From NCBI GenBank assembly GCA_030272155.1, contig CP126192.1, forward strand, positions 3,134,501 to 3,198,500: a DNA stretch of 64,000 bases. The letters run 5' to 3'. Shown here in pieces: positions 19,643-27,841 of the stretch (positions are counted from its first letter, which is position 1; every line of letters begins with the position of its first letter). This stretch comes from Tetradesmus obliquus (taxonomy: Eukaryota > Chlorophyta > Chlorophyceae > Sphaeropleales > Scenedesmaceae). The translations under genes were made by a program, and so were the position numbers. The notes beneath the pieces are model-generated. The model ran no database searches, was not told the origin of the DNA, and was given only the letters and a program-made list of their open reading frames with translations.

Positions 19643-19650
19643 AACGCGCC

Positions 19651-19816
19651 GAGAGAGAGGCTTGTTACAGGAGAAGGCAAGCTATCACCCGAGAGTGAGT
19701 CACTCGCCCTGCTTTCAGCTCACATATCGTATGAACTCGATAGCAAGCCACAAGACGCCACCAAAGAAAACTCCAGAGGCGTCTCGCAGCCCCTATCTCC
19801 CCATAAACGAACATGT
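19651..19816 (-). mobile_element. LINE 3'-end fragment, type X (array unit 1)
   Basis: 166-bp fragment nearly identical to 23432-23597 (about two mismatches plus the tail). Read on the minus strand it ends in a CT-rich tail (CCTCTCTCTC) that abuts GGCGCGT at 19643-19650. It is 5'-truncated where it meets the next junction at 19817-19824. It matches the 3' end of the reverse-transcriptase element at 23422-27010, so it is a severely 5'-truncated copy of that family. Confidence 0.75.
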
Positions 19817-19824
19817 ACACGCGC

Positions 19825-22373
19825 AGAAGAAGAGGGGTTGCACGGTGTGCACAGGCAACTACGTTGCAACGAACACCCGAAAATCTGGAACGTCGCAGAT
19901 GAATCAGCAAAACAGGCTGTCACTCAAGGAGACTCACCCCAGAAAGTCTCTCTGTGTGTGTAACTTGACATAAGGCCTTGCAGGCAAAGCCGTCAGTCAC
20001 AGCACACGCAGTGTTGATGCTAAACAAAGGCAGGACTAGTGTAAACAGTGTCAGTGACAGCAAGCTGCACTTTATGCAGTGCAGCGGGCGGGCTGAACCC
20101 ACAGAACAACACCCACCAGCAGAAACACAGCCTGGCAGGCGCGCCACCGCGCGGTGGCCTGAGGCGACAAACTGGGGAGAGAGAGCAGAGAACAAGCCAG
20201 CTGCTGCAAGGGCCGCACAACTACATTTTGCAGCAACGATACGGTAACTCACAGCTCCTGCAAAGCAAGACGGCTAGCTCTGGCGTGTCAGAAGCTCACA
20301 GAGAAAGCATGTACACACAGTGAGAAGAAGGCCATGGCCATCACCACCGCACCACACACAAACCATTGCCACGCAACACAGTATGCCAGGCAATAAAAGG
20401 CTGTTGTGTGAGCAGCCGATTTCTATACCGTGACGGCACCCTAGCCGTAGCAGCAAAGTCCGCCAGCGCATCCCAAAAAGCACCTACTGCTGCTCTCACA
20501 GCCACTTGCTCCACCAGCTGGGGTACCCCAAGGTCGCTTGACACAGCCCACGCTGCCCTGCGGCCTTTCTCAAAAGCATGCACTGCTGCAAGACAGACCA
20601 TGTCCCACACGAACGGATGTACAGCGTTATGAGGGGGGCACGCCAACCACATAGCTCGGCACGGCAGTACAGCACCTGCCGGCAACAAGTCGAACGCCCT
20701 TAGTTGACTTTCCACCTCACGCCGCACCGCCACAGCAACATGACATGTCCCAAAATGATGCTCCACCCCAGGCCCTGCAGCAGAACATGCTGCACACGCA
20801 GCAGTAGTCTGCATACGTTGAGCAGTAGGGAATGCATCCAAAGCCAAGCGCCACGCCGCTTCCTTGTACATGTTAGCCACCCGCACCTGCCACCAACGAG
20901 ACAACACCGACTGCACTGCAGGCAGGCTAACTGCCATCGGCAGGGCATCCAGGGCTCTAACCCGAGCAACAAAGGCAGCATGGCGGGGTGCAATGGCATC
21001 AAGCGCAGCAAGACGTTGTAGCTTCGTGGCATCAGCAACCTGCAGATAAGCCAAACGTATAAAACCGTCTGCCCCTGGCCGCTGCCAACCCAAATCAGCA
21101 CACAACTGTTCGCGCGCAATCAAAATGTCCACAGGAGAAACAGAGGATAATTGTGCAACGCTCGTACCGGTAGCTTGGGCAGCCGCCAGGTGCGCGCGTG
21201 CTGCAGTATGCCACACAGACGGCACAAACGACAGCAGATGCTGCACATGCTGCCGAGCCTGCTGCCGATCACCATACTGCGGTCTACTGCGCAGCCACGG
21301 GCCCCATATCTCGCGCTCATAAGCAGAGCGCTGAGCAGAAAGCCCTGGCAAGGCACAGACACGTTCAAGTTCTGACAACAGCAACACTGCCTGACCCAAA
21401 CACTGCAGCTTGGGGAGCTCCAGCAGGCCACACGGCGCCACCTGTTCCAAGCCCACCTCCACCTGACGCTGCTGATCAAACCATTGCCATGACTGTACCA
21501 CTGTAAACAGAGGATTGGCCCACAGCGGAGCCTCCCAGCACAAACCATCCACGTCCAAAGGCTGGTTTCCCACATGACGCAACGGTGGCAGGGCACGCAA
21601 ACCCATCGCCAAAACACGCAAAGGCGATGGCAAGCAGGCATCCGCAGGAGCTGCAGGGAAGATATGATGACGGGCACACATCGCAAGGCCCCAAGGGCTG
21701 CTAGCAGCAGCGCGCGTGAAACAATCCACAGCGCTAGCCCACTGTGCCCACAACTCCCGTCCCACTGTCACCCACGGTGCAGCACCGCCCTGCAGGAGGG
21801 GGATTGCTTCACAAGCCCAGCGAGACAACAAGTGATGGTGAACGGGCAGAAGGCCAAACCCACCACACCTAGGATGTGCAGCCATACTGTCCCCAGGGAT
21901 GCCAGGGGCACGCCTAAGATCATCCTCAGGCCCCAAGCCAGCATCAACAAGCGCTGCCGTCCACCTGCTGAGCTGTTCTGACACATTAGCTGGCAACTGC
22001 CCGGCAAACTGCGCTGCATATAGGATGGTGGACAGAGCATATGCATTAGCAGCGAAGGCCCTGCCAAACGCAGACAGCTTGGAGATGCGACTGATATTTT
22101 GCATGCGGTGGCGCACTGTCTCCAGCCTGCCCTCCCAATCCACGCTGCTATTGCCGCGCACACCAAAAAACACTCCTAGAGATTTGGCGCGCTGCACAAC
22201 CTGCATGCCGCCCACATTCTGCGCTGCCCCACCCGGCCCAGCTGCCGCTGCTGGCTGTCGCCCAACATGCAGCAAGTGCGACTTGGATGGGTTCAACCGC
22301 TGCCCTGACGCTTCTGCAAAATCCTCCATGCAGCTAAGGAAAGTGGGGACATTCGCAAGCGACAGCAGATGTA
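19825..22373 (-). mobile_element. 5'-truncated LINE with partial ORF2 (array unit 2)
   Basis: Minus-strand element. It begins at 22373, immediately after the junction motif, inside ORF2 just downstream of the catalytic FADD region; the ORF stops at 20341. A 3' region of about 515 bp follows and ends in CCCCTCTTCTTC. The terminal 288 bp (19833-20120) are nearly identical to 23013-23300, with about three differences. Classic 5' truncation with a short simple-repeat 3' tail indicates target-primed reverse transcription. Confidence 0.85.
20341..22370 (-). pseudogene. LINE ORF2 C-terminal fragment (reverse transcriptase core missing)
   Basis: Open frame of about 675 codons. It starts in the thumb region after the RT active site (FAEASGQRLNPSKSHLLHVG, then KSLGVFFGVRG) and continues through the long C-terminal part of L1-like ORF2. 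Near the end is a Cys/His cluster (CAACSAAGPGVEHHFGTC) resembling the zf-RVT domain of plant LINEs. The apparent upstream part of the frame (22371-22446) comes from the neighbouring element, not from this one. There is no RT palm and no endonuclease, so it cannot be active by itself. Confidence 0.85.
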
Positions 22374-22382
22374 CACGCGCCC

Positions 22383-22990
22383 GAAGAAGAAGAGGGGTTA
22401 CACGGTGTGCACAGGCAACTACGTTGCAACGAACACCCGAAAACACAGGAAAACTGCAGGAAGCTCAGCACAGGCCGTCACTCATGTAAGGCCCAACCCC
22501 AGAGAAATGGCCCCCGTGTGTAAGTTTCGGCATATGGCCATGCTAGCACAGCCGCCTTCCTTACTCCACACAGTTCGCCCCCAGAAAATGTATCCTCATA
22601 CGAGAAGTGGAAAATCAAGTGCTGCCAGCAGGGTCAATGACGGCAAGCAATGCAGAGAGAACACAGGGCCGCCATGCACTAATTGCATTGCGGGCGGGCT
22701 GAGCTCACCAAGCCGCAGCTCAGCCTGGGGCGGAGCGCAGCTTGGGCAGTGAAAAGATGGCTGGAAAAATGCAGAGCTGCCCAAAGGCACAGAAACACAA
22801 CTGCATGTCACAGCGGCCTGTCAGCAGCCACTCAGCAGACCAAACAAGCTTCCACCCAACGGGCAGGTCAAATAGCAAAGGCAAGGCACTATTGTGCAGA
22901 ATTACAGCGCCAGCGCCCAAATTTGATGCACTACCTTGGGCTGCCAGCGTAAACACGGCATGGCCCCAAAAGCAGTGGCAAGGCATGGGA
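22383..22990 (-). mobile_element. LINE 3'-end fragment, divergent subfamily (array unit 3)
   Basis: On the minus strand it runs from 22990 to 22383 and ends in the shared 50-bp terminus (ACGTAGTTGCCTGTGCACAC ... CCCCTCTTCTTCTTC). Upstream of that terminus it differs from the type at 19833-20120 and shares only scattered words (CAGCCCGCCCGC, GTGTG). It is flanked by the junction motif at both ends (22374-22382 and 22991-22999). Confidence 0.7.
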
Positions 22991-22999
22991 CACGCGCCC

Positions 23000-23299
23000 G
23001 AAGAAGAAGAAGAGGGGTTACACGGTGTGCACAGGCAACTACGTTGCAACGAACACCCGAAAATCTGGAACGTCGCAGATGAATCAGCAAAACAGGCTGT
23101 CACTCAAGGAGACTCACCCCAGAAAGTCTCTCTGTGTGTGTAACTTGACATAAGGCCTTGCAGGCAAAGCCGTCAGTCACAGCACACGCAGTGCTGATGC
23201 TAAACAAAGGCAGGACCAGTGTAAACAGTGTCAGTGACAGCAAGCTGCACTTTATGCAGTGCAGCGGGCGGGCTGAACCCACAGAACAACACCCACCAG
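23000..23299 (-). mobile_element. LINE 3'-end copy almost identical to that of unit 2 (array unit 4)
   Basis: 300 bp matching 19825-20120 with about three substitutions. It ends on the minus strand in CCCCTCTTCTTCTTCTTC, one more CTT than its sister. It is truncated at its 5' side exactly at the next junction motif (23300-23308). The very low divergence indicates a recent insertion. Confidence 0.8.
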
Positions 23300-23308
23300 C
23301 ACGCGCCC

Positions 23309-23412
23309 ATTAAGAAGAAGAGGGGTTACACGGTGTGCAAAGGCAACTACGTTGCAACGAACACCCGAAAATCTGGAACGTCGCAGATGACTCAGCAAAA
23401 CAGGCTGTCACT
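23309..23412 (-). mobile_element. Very short LINE 3'-end copy (array unit 5)
   Basis: About 100 bp, two or three mismatches to the last 90 bp of units 2 and 4, ending in CCCCTCTTCTTCTTA. It is bounded by CACGCGCCC at 23300-23308 and 23413-23421. Confidence 0.8.
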
Positions 23413-23896
23413 CACGCGCCCGTCGCGCCGGAGGAGAGGCTTGTTACAGGAGAAGGCAAGCTATCACCCGAGAGTGAGTCACTCGCCCTACTTTCAGCTC
23501 ACATATCGTATGAACTCGATAGCAAGCCACAAGACGCCACCAAAAAAAACTCCAGAGGCGTCTCGCAGCCCCTATCTCCCCATAAACGAACATGTACATG
23601 CAGGGCAGCAAGTGCGAAATGCAGCACGAAAAAGCAGCATGTGCTCCACGCACCAGGCAAAAAGCGCACAGGGAAGGACAAGCATGGTCCAAACAGTAAG
23701 CGGGGTGCACAAAGGTGCTGCTCACCATAAATGTCTGGCATGATTGCATCAAGGCACTGCTGTACTCACCAGACTGCAGCAAGCAGGAGCATGCGTAACT
23801 GACGCGGTGCACGACTGACAGGCAAATCAAAGCAAACTAAGGCAAACTAAGGCAAACTAGGGCTCTGCTGCTTCTGCAATCCTTACTGCTGAATGC

Positions 23897-23980
23897 AAAA
23901 GGGCGCAGCGCTTTTGTTCAAAGAACAAAAGGGCGCAGCGCTTTTGTTCAAAGAACAAAAGGGCGCAGCGCTTTTGTTCA
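23897..23980. repeat. 30-bp tandem repeat, nearly three copies, containing an inverted repeat
   Basis: Unit AAAAGGGCGCAGCGCTTTTG plus TTCAAAGAAC at 23897-23926 and 23927-23956, and a partial third unit at 23957-23980. The AAAAG...GCGC...CTTTT core is nearly palindromic and could form a hairpin. It lies in the 3' region of the RT-bearing LINE. Confidence 0.85.
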
Positions 23981-24114
23981 CAAGGACAGAAACATGCAGC
24001 ACGGAGGAAAGAGCTGAGAAACCAGCGCTGCGACACCCACCACATGCAACATGCCCTTGTCAGAAACTGGAAAATCGACAACTGCTGACAGCACAACATG
24101 CAGAGGCAGGAAGG

Positions 24115-27003
24115 TCAACCAGAGCGGGGCGCCAGTACAATGCGCAGCTGCGCTGGATCAGAGCACAGAAACGGGTGATTGCCAGGCACCGCAACCCGCC
24201 AAGTAGCGGGCGCTGCCTCTGCTGCCACAAAATCAGCAAGCAACTCCCAAAACCTTAACACCGCTTGCTGCTTAGCCTCCTGTAACATCTGCGCTACTAG
24301 CTGTTGTCGCTGTTGTTGTTGATGCAGCTGCTGCTGCTGCCGGCGCTGCTCTACCAGCTGATTATGCTGTTGCTGCGCAGCAGTGAGAGCTGCATGCTGT
24401 GGTGTATCAGTAATAAGCGCCTGGCCCGCCGGCAGCGGCGGTGGCTGCTGCACGGCCAGGGTGGGCGGCGGGATGCTCAAATTATTAGCATGTCGTCTGC
24501 CAACATCCATGGCATTCAGAGCAGCTAGACAGACAACCTTCCAAACGCCCATGTGGAGCTTGGTAGGGCCAGCTGGCGGCTGCATCAACCAAACATGCCG
24601 CATAGCAAGCGGCGGGCGGCCTGCAGCCCGCGTGCACCAAGCAGCAGGCAACTCAGACAGCACACTATCAATCACTGCTACCGCAACAGGGCACTCCCAA
24701 AAATGATGAACCCAACCAGGACAGGCAGCGCCACACATGCAAGTGTCACCCGACTTGTGCATACGCTGCGATGTCGGCAGGCCATCCATAATAAGCCGCC
24801 AGTACAACTCTTTGAAATTATTATCCCAGCGCATCTTCCAAAGCATGCTCTGGTTAGCTGCCACCCACTTCAAGCCATCAATCACTGCTGCTGGTGCAGC
24901 ACCTGAGCCCAGCGCAGCCTGGACAAACCTAGTGCGCTTCTCACGGCGCTCAGCACGCAGCGCACCAAGCTGCAGTGAGGTGGCTTCACTAACAGACAAT
25001 TTTGCAACAGGAACAGCCTTGCCTCGGACATTTTGCCAACCCAGTCGAGCCACCAACATGGCCTCAACTTGCTGTTCTGCTGCAGAAGGTATACATGGTG
25101 GGTCCGGCACAGCCGCAGGCGGCCAAGGCCGGTCTGCGGCAGGATGCTGCACAACAGGCAAAACAGCCATAGTCCATGCAATGGGCAGTTTATCAACCAG
25201 GCCTTGCAAATCCTCAGCCTCGTTGTCAGCATTGCTGTAGTTGGACCCGTAAGGCAGCAACGGGTGCGGCATCTGTTGCTGAACAACACGCTGAATGAGA
25301 TACCACGCCCGAATAAGATCAGCCACAGTGCGAAGACGCGGCCTGCATTTGCCGCCACGACACTCATGCTCCCTGCGCTTAGCGGGCACCGGCAGGCACT
25401 GCAGCCCGCCCGGCACAAACCCAAGCCCAGCTTGCAGGAAGGGGTTGGCAAACACTGGCGCCAAGCTGCACCAAGCCCCAGGCTGCAGCACTGGCGCGTC
25501 CTGCACAGCCTGCAACTGCTGCCGCAGCTGCTGCATGTCTGACAGCTGCTGCGGATGCGGCAGGGGCAGCACAGGGGAGGGCGCGGCTGGTGCCAGCGCC
25601 TTCACATCACGGACTGGGCCCAGTGCTTGAAGACCAGCAATCATGTGGCGCAGCGGTGGGGGAGGGAGGGACTGCTGGGGAAACGCCTGTGGCAGGTCCA
25701 TAGGCGTGTGCGTGTCTGAGCTGCTGTCAAACACGGACAAGGGGCCACACCACTTATGCTTGGAGCGCAACAGCGCCCGCCCAATGCGGATCCAGGGCAG
25801 CTCAGTGTCAGGCGGCGCAGTAGCAAACTGCGCGCCCCACCAAGCATGCCGTGCACGTATGTGTTCAAGCCATGGCAAAGCACCAAAACCCCCTTCAGCT
25901 GGCCTGCCCGCCAGCAGGCGAGCAGCTACACCAGTAAAACGCCGTTCGGTTGACGCAGGCGCCAACCCTCTATCCACTAACTTCCCAACCGACGCAACAA
26001 GGTGCTGCCGATCAACATCTGCCGGTATATATGAAAATTCAGCTGCATACAACAGGGTGCTGACACCATACGCTGCGCTACCCATGCCTCTGCCAAATTG
26101 TGGTATGTGTGACAGCCGCGCAAGCGCGGCATCCACTGCAGCCAGCTTCTGACTCCAGTCTACAGGAGAGTCAGAGCCCACACACCCACCCAGCACATTG
26201 GCCTGCAGCACAGGACAGAAGGGCAGCACACCCGCTGCATGCTGCTGCGAGAGCGCTGTTTGCTGCTGCCGCGCAGCAGCACCTAGCAATAGTAACTTTG
26301 ATTTATGCAGATTGAGCTGCTGCCCAGACGCGGCTGCCATAACCTGCATATGTAGCAAAGAACTGTGGGACCTGTGCAGGTGACTGCAGGTGACTGCAGG
26401 TGGGACCTGTGCAGGTGACTGCAGGTAGACCTGCGTGTCATCCGCAAACTGCGTCGCTGACAATTTGATGCCTTGCACGCTGATGTCAATGCCTTTCGAC
26501 TGCAAGAACCTCAGCAGGGCTTCACCAACAAACAGGTACAGCAGTGGAGACAAGGGGCACCCCTGCCGCACACCAGCATCAAACCTGCGCATGCCGGAAA
26601 CAAAGCCATTCATGCAAGCACACGCATGCGTGTTAGTAAGCAACAGTTCCACCCACTTGCAGAACTCTGGCCCCACACCCATAGCACTCATGACAGACAG
26701 CAGGAAAGGCCTGTCCAAGGTGTCGTATGCCTTGGCAAAATCCAGCAGCGCCGCCACCACGGTGCTGTCTGCTGGCAGCGCATGCAGCAGCAGCTGCACG
26801 GTGATGATGTTGTGCCCAATCCTGCGCTGTTTAATGAACGCTGTTTGGGTAGGGGAGATCGCCTGGTCCAGCACTTGCTGCAGGCGGGACGCCAGGATTC
26901 TCGCCAAGAGCCTGTAGTCTGTGTTCAGCAGTGTGATAGGGCGGTAGTTGGCAGCAAGGGTAGCATCGCCAGCTTTGAAGATGCCAATCACCACACCATC
27001 CAA
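24115..27003 (-). pseudogene. LINE ORF2 fragment: reverse transcriptase and C-terminal region
   Basis: Continuous frame of about 960 codons with L1-type RT blocks in order: YRPITLLNTDYRLLARILAS, FAKAYDTLD (motif A aspartates), GVRQGCPLSPLLY (motif B) and ATQFADDTQVYL (motif C, catalytic FADD). Directly after motif C a run of 11-12-bp minisatellite units (26376-26430) adds about 20 residues. The C-terminus has a zinc-knuckle-like CMCGAACPGWVHHFWEC, as in zf-RVT, and a Gln-rich stretch. The RT residues are intact, but the element lacks its endonuclease and 5' end, so I class it as a truncated copy. Confidence 0.88.
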
Positions 27004-27019
27004 GAAGCCAGTGCTGCCC

Positions 27020-27310
27020 GTTTAGAGAGAGAGGGGTTACACTGGTGTACTCACGCGGCATACGCCACCACTAACACCTGAAAGGATTTGAAGCTGCAAA
27101 CAGCTCAGCTCGGGCTGTCACTCAAATGAGGTTCAACCCCATGAAAAACCTCTGTGTGTGAGATCAACTTTGGTCATGCACGCATAACCGTCTCTCCCAT
27201 CACACACAATTCTGGTGCAATCAAAAAGTTTTCGTGTCCGAACATGAATGCACTTTTCTAAACAGTGTCAGTGACAGCACACTATACATATTGCAGTACA
27301 GTACAGCAGG
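27020..27310 (-). mobile_element. Divergent LINE 3' end (array unit 7, outermost)
   Basis: Roughly 290 bp sharing spaced words with units 2 and 4 in the same order (AGAGGGGTTACAC, CTGTCACTCA, AACCCCA, CTCTGTGTGTG, AAACAGTGTCAGTGACAGCA, GCTGAAC). On the minus strand it ends in a CT tail at about 27024-27034. More diverged than the other copies, so probably older. Confidence 0.65.
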
Positions 27311-27526
27311 CTGAACTCAAGCCGCTGATTTGATTAGGCAAATCATGGCAAGGCAGCATGCAGACTGCGCAGTCTGAAGGCAGGCTGTCTGTTGAGGGTC
27401 AGTCATGGCTGCATGTTGCAGCAGACATGTAAGGATCCTACAACACCTGCCAAATGTGATAAGTATAGGAGGTGATAGAGCATGTATAGACATGCATATG
27501 CACACGTCTCATCTGCGGATCACACG

Positions 27527-27590
27527 TAAGCCATTGCCACGTAACACAGTGTGCCAGCAATAAACGGCTGTCGTGTGCTGCCCGTCAGGA
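27527..27590 (-). mobile_element. Solo remnant of a LINE ORF2 3' end
   Basis: About 60 bp similar to the end of the ORF2 fragment at 20353-20420 (shared CCATTGCCACG, AACACAGT, TGCCAG, CAATAAA, GGCTGT). Translated on the minus strand, QPFIAGTLCYVAMAYV parallels QPFIAWHTVLRGNGLCVV. No matching upstream or downstream LINE sequence surrounds it. Confidence 0.6.
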
Positions 27591-27680
27591 TTCGAGAAGA
27601 GAGGGGTGGAGAGAGAGAGAGATTGGAGAGGGGTGGGAGAGAGGTCTGTGGGGTAAAGAGAGAGAGGTCTGTGGGGTGGT
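27588..27680. repeat. GA-rich simple-sequence stretch with a short duplication
   Basis: Runs of GAGAGAGG/GGGTGG, including a repeated segment AGAGAGAGGTCTGTGGGGT. Non-coding, between the LINE remnant and the tRNA gene. Confidence 0.7.
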
Positions 27681-27768
27681 CAGGATTCGAACACTGAAAT
27701 GTACTCGCCGTTACGTTGTTACTTGGCTGCTGCAGTTGCATATCGGAATGAAGGTTCCCTGGTACCAG

Positions 27769-27841
27769 GGGGATTTAGCTCAATTGGTAGAGCGCTCGCT
27801 TCGCATGCGAGAGGTCGGGGGTTCGATTCCCTCAATCTCCA
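27769..27841 (+). tRNA. tRNA-Ala, anticodon CGC
   Basis: 73-nt cloverleaf: acceptor GGGGATT pairs with AATCTCC (one G-U), D stem GCTC/GAGC, anticodon stem CTCGC/GCGAG with loop TTCGCAT giving anticodon CGC, five-base variable loop, T stem GGGGG/CCCTC with loop TTCGATT, discriminator A. Internal promoter A and B boxes (TAGCTCAATTGGTAGAGC and GGTTCGATTCC) are intact. There is no intron and no encoded CCA. It reads GCG alanine codons, common in this GC-rich coding sequence. Confidence 0.95.

Follow-up and report, generated by a model that had tools for sequence, protein, structure and literature searches.

A 64,000 nt stretch of the Tetradesmus obliquus genome (contig C2, positions 3134501-3198500; termed the window) carries an array of truncated long interspersed nuclear elements (LINEs) that adjoins a transfer RNA (tRNA) gene. 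An earlier note on this DNA described at least seven minus-strand, 5′-truncated LINE pieces arranged head-to-tail, and direct reading of seven such units bears out this description. The units have tails of the form AACCCC(TCT/TTC)n or AACAAGCC(TC)n and are joined by a short word, GGGCGCG. As the same note had recognized, the word recurs: the complete GGGCGCG or 5-6 nt of it is present at six joints (19645-19650, 19820-19824, 22376-22382, 22993-22999, 23302-23308 and 23415-23421), and a second partial copy lies at 23424-23430. The count alone is weak evidence, as ACGCGCCC occurs five times in the window against 2.04 expected, and at least five times in 9 of 100 shuffled sequences. Four of the five occurrences are located exactly at joints.

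The array is anchored at its 5′ end by a tRNA-Ala(CGC) gene (27769-27841, plus strand; detected by ARAGORN and, with 71.6 bits, by the Rfam tRNA model) that is divergent from the LINEs. Next to this gene lies the youngest insertion, of 84 bp (27595-27678, minus strand), with the direct repeat TCGAATCCTGAC on both sides as its target-site duplication (TSD). The tRNA-side copy of this TSD (27679-27690, minus strand), together with the T that precedes it, constitutes the B-box-like sequence TTCGAATCC. As read by eye, the insertion is composed of extremely truncated, CT-tailed LINE ends of the CACCCCACAGACCTCTCTC type. Both it and the tRNA-Ala gene are additions to the features listed in the earlier note.

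The seven units, all encoded on the minus strand like the words between them, are described here from the tRNA side outwards. Unit A (27021-27575) has the tail CCCCTCTCTCTC and is bounded by TSD copies CGGGCAGCAC on its 5′ side (27575-27584) and its 3′ side (27011-27020). The latter copy forms the joint near 27024, which had been thought to lack a word; it has CGGGC in common with GGGCGCG. Unit B (23431-27010) is a 5′-truncated L1-like LINE that retains reverse transcriptase (RT; RVT_1) and 3′ untranslated region (UTR) sequences, with a 968-codon frame (24115-27021), and contains a piece resembling 19645-19822. The joint between units B and D, CGGCGCGAC-GGGCGCG (23415-23430), holds two partial word copies. 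Unit D (23312-23414) is followed by GGGCGCG (23302-23308) and then by unit E (23005-23301), which has 99% identity to the 3′ end of unit G. Beyond another GGGCGCG, with TGT after it (22993-22999 for the word), are unit F (22390-22987), of a second 3′ family, and a further GGGCGCG (22376-22382). The adjoining TGTACA (22370-22375) is foreign to unit G and matches the opening bases of the older unit H. Unit G (19826-22369) is a 5′-truncated LINE with the C-terminal part of ORF2, and its 707-codon frame continues into unit F. A GCGCG word (19820-19824) separates it from unit H (19651-19819), the 3′ end of an AACAAG family member that we take to be the oldest unit. The array ends with the outer, host-side TSD copy GGCGCG (19645-19650), followed by TTTCTGTTTTGCGG, which is unique in the sequence examined.

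The joint words are local target-site duplications

The genome searched comprises 104.66 Mb in 17 contigs (C1, C2 and so on), and its 52 matches to chlorophyll a/b-binding proteins are in keeping with a photosynthetic eukaryote. A 26-base motif from the 3′ end of one LINE family occurs in it 233 times, and the tail TGTAACAAGCCTCTCTC 146 times; the tail lists made by pattern contain false matches, such as AACCCATC inside a coding sequence. Around LINE matches we read 68 loci, overlapping in part and 3.0-3.7 kb in length (loci and flanks are numbered with the prefix L). Arrays elsewhere have words of their own: GCTGACAACAT at C1:370-374k, AAATTTGCCC at C1:5.02M, CCGCCTTC at C1:8.01-8.02M, CGATTGTC at C7:3.42-3.43M, CGCATTTTTCA at C10:564-565k, CCCACTCCTGG at C16:2.44M and AAAAAATCTCGC at C2:4072k. 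Adjacent same-strand junctions less than 4 kb apart have a word in common in 48 of 79 pairs, although some of the shared strings are unit starts and not words, whereas control pairs drawn from different arrays share one in a mean of 2.9 of 79 cases (maximum 11 in 200 draws). This genome-wide comparison is stronger evidence than the number of words in the window. The word is also shared by 13 of the 25 pairs that differ in tail type, and thus different LINE families insert at the same place.

In most arrays whose 5′ flank was read, the word recurs on that side (for example GCTGACAACAT at C1:374k and AAAAAATCTCGC at C2:4072k). The two copies can be far apart: CCGCCTTC is present at the tRNA end at C1:8021931 and again approximately 7-11 kb away, and CCCACTCCTGG at the tRNA end at C16:2439419 and 4-5 kb away. 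A single 70-bp insertion at C1:864k has the TSD CTTTACCGCTTC, and no TSD is visible at the ends of a lone insertion at C1:4215779 (L016), whose CTT tail is very long.

Empty sites were found for two arrays. At a paralogous tRNA locus, the flank of C2:4065680 (L074) reads GTTTTCCGG-AAAAAATCTCGC-AAAATACAG and is free of inserts, and in its occupied partner at C2:4072292 LINEs amounting to 3.1 kb separate two copies of AAAAAATCTCGC. Similarly, the flank of C10:543139 (L105) runs from TTTAGCC through GGCGAATTTTTCAG to TTTTCTCATAATATACGC. The partner tRNA at C10:543955 leads into LINE sequence, and the distal host side reappears at C10:565187, at the end of a 21-kb interval that was read outside 544478-560226. 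The word is a local TSD that is re-used by several LINE families. The earlier proposal of repeated target-primed insertion at the same site with duplication of the target therefore holds, but not its identification of CACGCGCCC as the target recognized.

The elements of the arrays are, as judged from their sequences, L1-like LINEs of the apurinic/apyrimidinic endonuclease (APE) type with 5′ truncation and TSDs. Specifically, the C1:8.01-8.02M array includes a LINE (C1:8021720 to approximately 8014950) with an intact 1518-codon open reading frame (ORF) for an APE endonuclease and an RT. In this copy the endonuclease is N-terminal (PF03372, E = 8e-6), the RT matches PF00078 (E = 2e-29), and the longest ATG frame upstream of ORF2 is 153 amino acids. 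When the first 979 of its 1518 amino acids are compared, the closest solved relative is human L1 ORF2p (1.5e-40), with R2 matching at 1e-11 or weaker. Ten endonuclease matches with frames of 1516-1518 codons are distributed over C1, C5 and C8, the majority within LINE clusters or next to them, and recent LINE activity is therefore likely. Other endonuclease matches, on C10, C11, C12 and C14 (for example C12:3716802 and C14:1476240), have frames of 1712-1898 codons and probably represent a different LINE family. Two peculiarities of unit B in the window fall within the intervals 23896-23988 and 26375-26433: three tandem copies of a 30 bp repeat in the 3′ UTR, which none of the other copies compared has, and a repeat inserted into the RT frame relative to the 1518-amino-acid ORF.

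Many LINE stacks begin upstream of tRNA genes

ARAGORN identified tRNAs in 9 of 38 merged LINE-locus stretches, and at 10 tRNA genes, including that of the window, the LINEs begin on the 5′ side and on the opposite strand. These 10 genes come from loci selected for LINEs and were used for anatomy only; the association test was therefore repeated from the tRNA side. The tRNA list used is partial (62 Rfam matches, from 63 of 1714 candidates scored). Excluding the four tRNAs found through LINE loci, 57 tRNA 5′ flanks were taken regardless of LINEs, and a flank was counted if 60 nt or more of LINE sequence lay within 450 bp, with CAG runs masked. Under this rule a CAG match (L099) was not counted, a flank with 27 nt of LINE (L121) was scored as a miss, and one with 134 nt beside a second tRNA (L081) was omitted.

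LINE sequence is present in 34 of the 57 5′ flanks, in all 34 in divergent orientation only. In contrast, it is present in 1 of 20 tRNA 3′ flanks of 370 nt (Fisher p = 1.4e-5) and, with CAG runs masked, in none of 122 window tiles. For the same 20 tRNAs the counts are 13 on the 5′ side and 1 on the 3′ side. In the reverse comparison, a listed tRNA lies no more than 5 kb away from 24 of 100 listed LINE 3′ ends, in all 24 cases on the 5′ side and on the opposite strand. For these same 100 ends, this arrangement is favoured by 32 to 1 within 10 kb and by 39 to 4 within 20 kb.

The distance from the nick to the tRNA downstream of it was determined at 20 sites, decoded by eye and picked for a visible repeated word (5-14 nt, also chosen by eye); it is 61-134 bp, with a median of 83. 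No sequence consensus is obvious by eye at these 20 nicks; TTCGAA precedes the nick by 3-8 nt in seven of them. One tRNA site (L123) apparently carries a single unit. In most decodable cases the insertion site is set by the neighbouring tRNA gene.

The tRNA 5′ flanks themselves have recurrent motifs. Among flanks L069-L126, read in LINE orientation, TTCGAA is present in 13 of 57 (against a mean of 1.3 in shuffled sequences), GCAAAAnTGTnA in 7 of 57 and TTTAGGGTT in 4 of 57, and the LINE nicks often lie just beyond one of these motifs. They are possible external promoter elements for RNA polymerase III (Pol III).

Ten further flanks were fetched as a prediction, and in four of them a tRNA gene lies where it was expected and is oriented as predicted. 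Two appear to be LINE throughout and are uninformative (L156, by BLAST; L151, from an RT-like reading frame seen by eye), and in the other four (L153, L154, L155 and L157) neither ARAGORN nor Rfam detects a tRNA. On the expected strand, L154, L155 and L157 have a B-box-like motif with no more than one mismatch, and L153 has none. Rfam searches of insertions without a known tRNA found two tRNAs in 14 loci in one case and two in 7 loci in the other. Overall, 4 of 9 tRNA-less flanks have such a B-box, as do 187 of 2000 window pieces, a difference that is suggestive only.

Stacks appear to grow at the tRNA side

The order of insertion can be read where the TSD of one unit contains the first bases of another, as the latter must be older and the stack must then have grown at the tRNA side. 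In the best-matching copy of unit G, the native sequence before TCTGCTG is GAGGTGTT and not the TGTACA found in the window. TGTACA would be expected if unit G entered on the 5′ side of unit H, because its top-strand cut would then fall inside unit H. This result suggests that the TSD of unit G reached into unit H. In the C10 array, four internal words end in CAAC, in which AC is the start of the 3′-most unit, and the host-side copy has CAGT. In the C16 array, two internal words read CTGG versus CTGA on the host side. No signature of the opposite polarity was seen in the arrays read by eye, which are a part of all arrays. We infer that growth at the tRNA side is the general direction.

The nick is apparently not fixed to the nucleotide. 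At C1:5.019M, GGCGCT is both the native start of one unit and the word of the units nearer the tRNA; the nick apparently moved into the first bases of the older unit, so that the word changed.

Features of individual arrays

Several other loci deserve mention. A segment of 1961 bp is 100% identical between C7:3427980-3432017 and C1:5005719-5007679 (L060, L055, L068), and the identity extends across a joint of tail and GCGCTGGG, a word that belongs to the C1 array. This segment looks like either a retrotransposed read-through transcript of a stack or a recent duplication. Within the C1:8.01-8.02M stack, from C1:8012445 towards 8012060 (L029, L028), we noted by eye a tRNA-derived unit resembling a short interspersed nuclear element (SINE; GTGGTGTAGTGGTTAGGGTGCTCGCC...GTTTCGAGCCCC), which carries a CCCTATCTTCTTC tail and is flanked on either side by one and the same word. 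Insertion sites seem to be shared between SINEs and LINEs.

Very long LINE runs of one orientation are present at C1:4948343-5021111 and C7:3410863-3440790. In the former, all listed tails of one motif between C1:4951696 and 5020635 are on the plus strand, beginning beside a tRNA-Pro gene; the run, read in part, is possibly a 70-kb stack. Inverted tRNA pairs have LINE stacks between or outside them at C3:4325254/4341922, C4:3844216/3858448, C1:8021931/8029850 and C14:1133115/1137646. Also, a unit at C1:372548 (L012) starts with an inverted piece (CCTAGGATG ... CATCCTAGG), resembling twin priming.

A model for stack formation and its alternatives

The arrays are very probably the product of L1-like APE LINEs that are targeted upstream of tRNA genes, in the manner of the TRE5 elements of Dictyostelium, and that re-use their TSDs as R1 elements do. 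The position and orientation of the stacks and the precedent of TRE5 suggest that the Pol III factors TFIIIC/TFIIIB may recruit the LINE particle. Target-primed reverse transcription would then duplicate 5-14 bp, which become the word. The copy nearest the tRNA would still adjoin an unchanged tRNA flank, leaving the same nick available again, and the next LINE could enter on the tRNA side of the older one and restore the word. Iteration would yield a polar head-to-tail stack with its youngest unit by the tRNA, its oldest by the distal host DNA and a locus-specific word at the joints.

Some observations weigh against this model. No shared word is present in 31 of the 79 adjacent pairs, no LINE in 23 of the 57 tRNA 5′ flanks, and no listed tRNA (from a partial list) within 20 kb of 57 of the 100 listed LINE 3′ ends. 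Within 300 bp of five insertions (C1:864k, C1:1072k, C1:4215k, C17:2973k and that in L153) there is neither a tRNA nor, on the expected strand, a B-box with one mismatch or fewer. Upstream of 28 tRNAs, same-strand LINEs number 1 within 5 kb and 4 within 10 kb, versus 9 and 13 divergent ones. The tRNA-Pro gene at C1:4948343 has a same-strand stack of two LINE units whose 5′ end is at most approximately 10 bp from the tRNA 3′ end, and it has a divergent stack upstream as well. Growth at the tRNA side is clear in the window array and weaker at C10 and C16, and is thus firm in one array only. The polarity mark at C16 is a single base, and polarity is ambiguous at C1:8012445, where the start of the SINE-like unit may have another origin.

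The alternatives account for parts of these data. The earlier note held that the LINE endonuclease recognizes CACGCGCCC and re-inserts wherever this word is present, which suits the word or part of it at six window joints. We regard this as most improbable: the other arrays read have different words, none of them has CACGCGCCC, an outcome that the note itself had named as refuting its proposal, and the word acts as a TSD that is present once in empty sites. A recognition role for CACGCGCCC was rejected on account of the array-specific words. There is a small chance that the arrays reflect nesting of the Zepp type, also invoked in that note, in which LINEs target the ends of resident copies, the clusters mark centromeres and tRNAs are bystanders. 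Head-to-tail clusters of 5′-truncated copies have been described for Zepp (PMC8226300, PMC3446292), very large clusters exist at C1:4.95-5.02 Mb and C7:3.41-3.44 Mb, and some insertions are without a tRNA. Nevertheless, the narrow range of distances to tRNA genes, the divergent orientation, the occurrence of stacks at many tRNA loci, the joints at TSDs, the empty tRNA sites L074 and L105 and the apparent single-unit site L123 fit nesting less well. Self-targeting may add to array growth.

A single event in which the RT switches templates, chaining several RNAs and copying the target overhang between them, has a slim chance of being correct. It would explain end-to-end joints, microhomology at 5′ starts and the wordless joins of micro-units at 27595-27678. 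However, an internal TSD holds six bases of the neighbour's 5′ start in the window, and two bases at C10, and the neighbouring unit was therefore already in the genome. These internal TSDs led us to reject one such event as the main mechanism. Amplification of one insertion by tandem duplication or unequal crossing-over is very improbable, even though the arrays are tandem and C7 has two 1395-bp copies with 100% identity, because neighbours are often of different families and have different truncation points; it was rejected as the main mechanism on these grounds. Duplication is unnecessary for most joints and could explain a few. Lastly, an assembly artefact, although the sequence is repetitive, is scarcely credible given the locus-specific words, the host flanks on both sides and the matching empty sites at two loci, all as seen in the assembly sequence.

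Comparison with known systems

Targeting of Pol III genes is a property of Ty3 as well as of TRE5. TRE5, an L1-clade element of Dictyostelium, is reported to enter tRNA gene flanks approximately 44-54 bp upstream, oriented opposite to the gene, and to require the B box (PMC5911963, PMC5391098). Both systems consist of LINEs with an APE and an RT located upstream of tRNA genes in opposite transcriptional orientation, a likeness that we assume to be convergent. The differences are the insertion window of 44-54 bp versus 61-134 bp (median 83) here, the oligo(A) tail versus CT and CTT tails, and stacking, which is not mentioned for TRE5 in the parts of PMC5911963 and PMC5391098 consulted.

In R1 tandems of Drosophila 28S genes, a TSD lies between the units and new elements enter the TSD that borders the resident element on its 5′ side (PMC2718515). 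The algal arrays likewise have a TSD between units and growth at the 5′ TSD (clearly in the window, less so at C10 and C16). The target of R1 is a single 28S sequence, whereas each tRNA flank here has its own word. Unlike R1, a stack combines several families, most of its units are strongly truncated, and it extends over kilobases, possibly tens of kilobases. Zepp and ZeppL of green algae, which are also L1-type LINEs forming clusters of 5′-truncated copies, are described as inserting in nested fashion into existing copies and forming one cluster per chromosome (PMC8226300, PMC3446292). In contrast, the stacks described here occupy many loci per contig and are mostly tRNA-anchored. In the window, the stack grows at the TSD, on the border of resident copies.

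Among the open papers listed, which give partial coverage of the literature, we saw no report of tRNA-anchored LINE stacks in algae or plants, and neither of the two behaviours turned up for a genome of this kind. A more speculative and rather unlikely reading is that tRNA genes are immortal docking sites: as each insertion would regenerate the nick beside a Pol III complex, LINE stacks would rise in the manner of stalagmites and preserve a dated record of their insertions. On this reading, the large algal clusters of the Zepp/ZeppL type, which are taken as centromeric, may be seeded and extended likewise. The model gives a mechanical account of how truncated LINEs of mixed families cluster at one point and predicts the age order of the units. 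It also makes testable whether algal LINE clusters, including those taken as centromeric, begin at tRNA genes. Targeting of tRNA genes by L1-clade LINEs is known from Dictyostelium and re-use of the TSD from R1. Their combination in these arrays would join the Pol III-gene targeting of TRE5 and Ty3 with the TSD re-use of R1 in one system.

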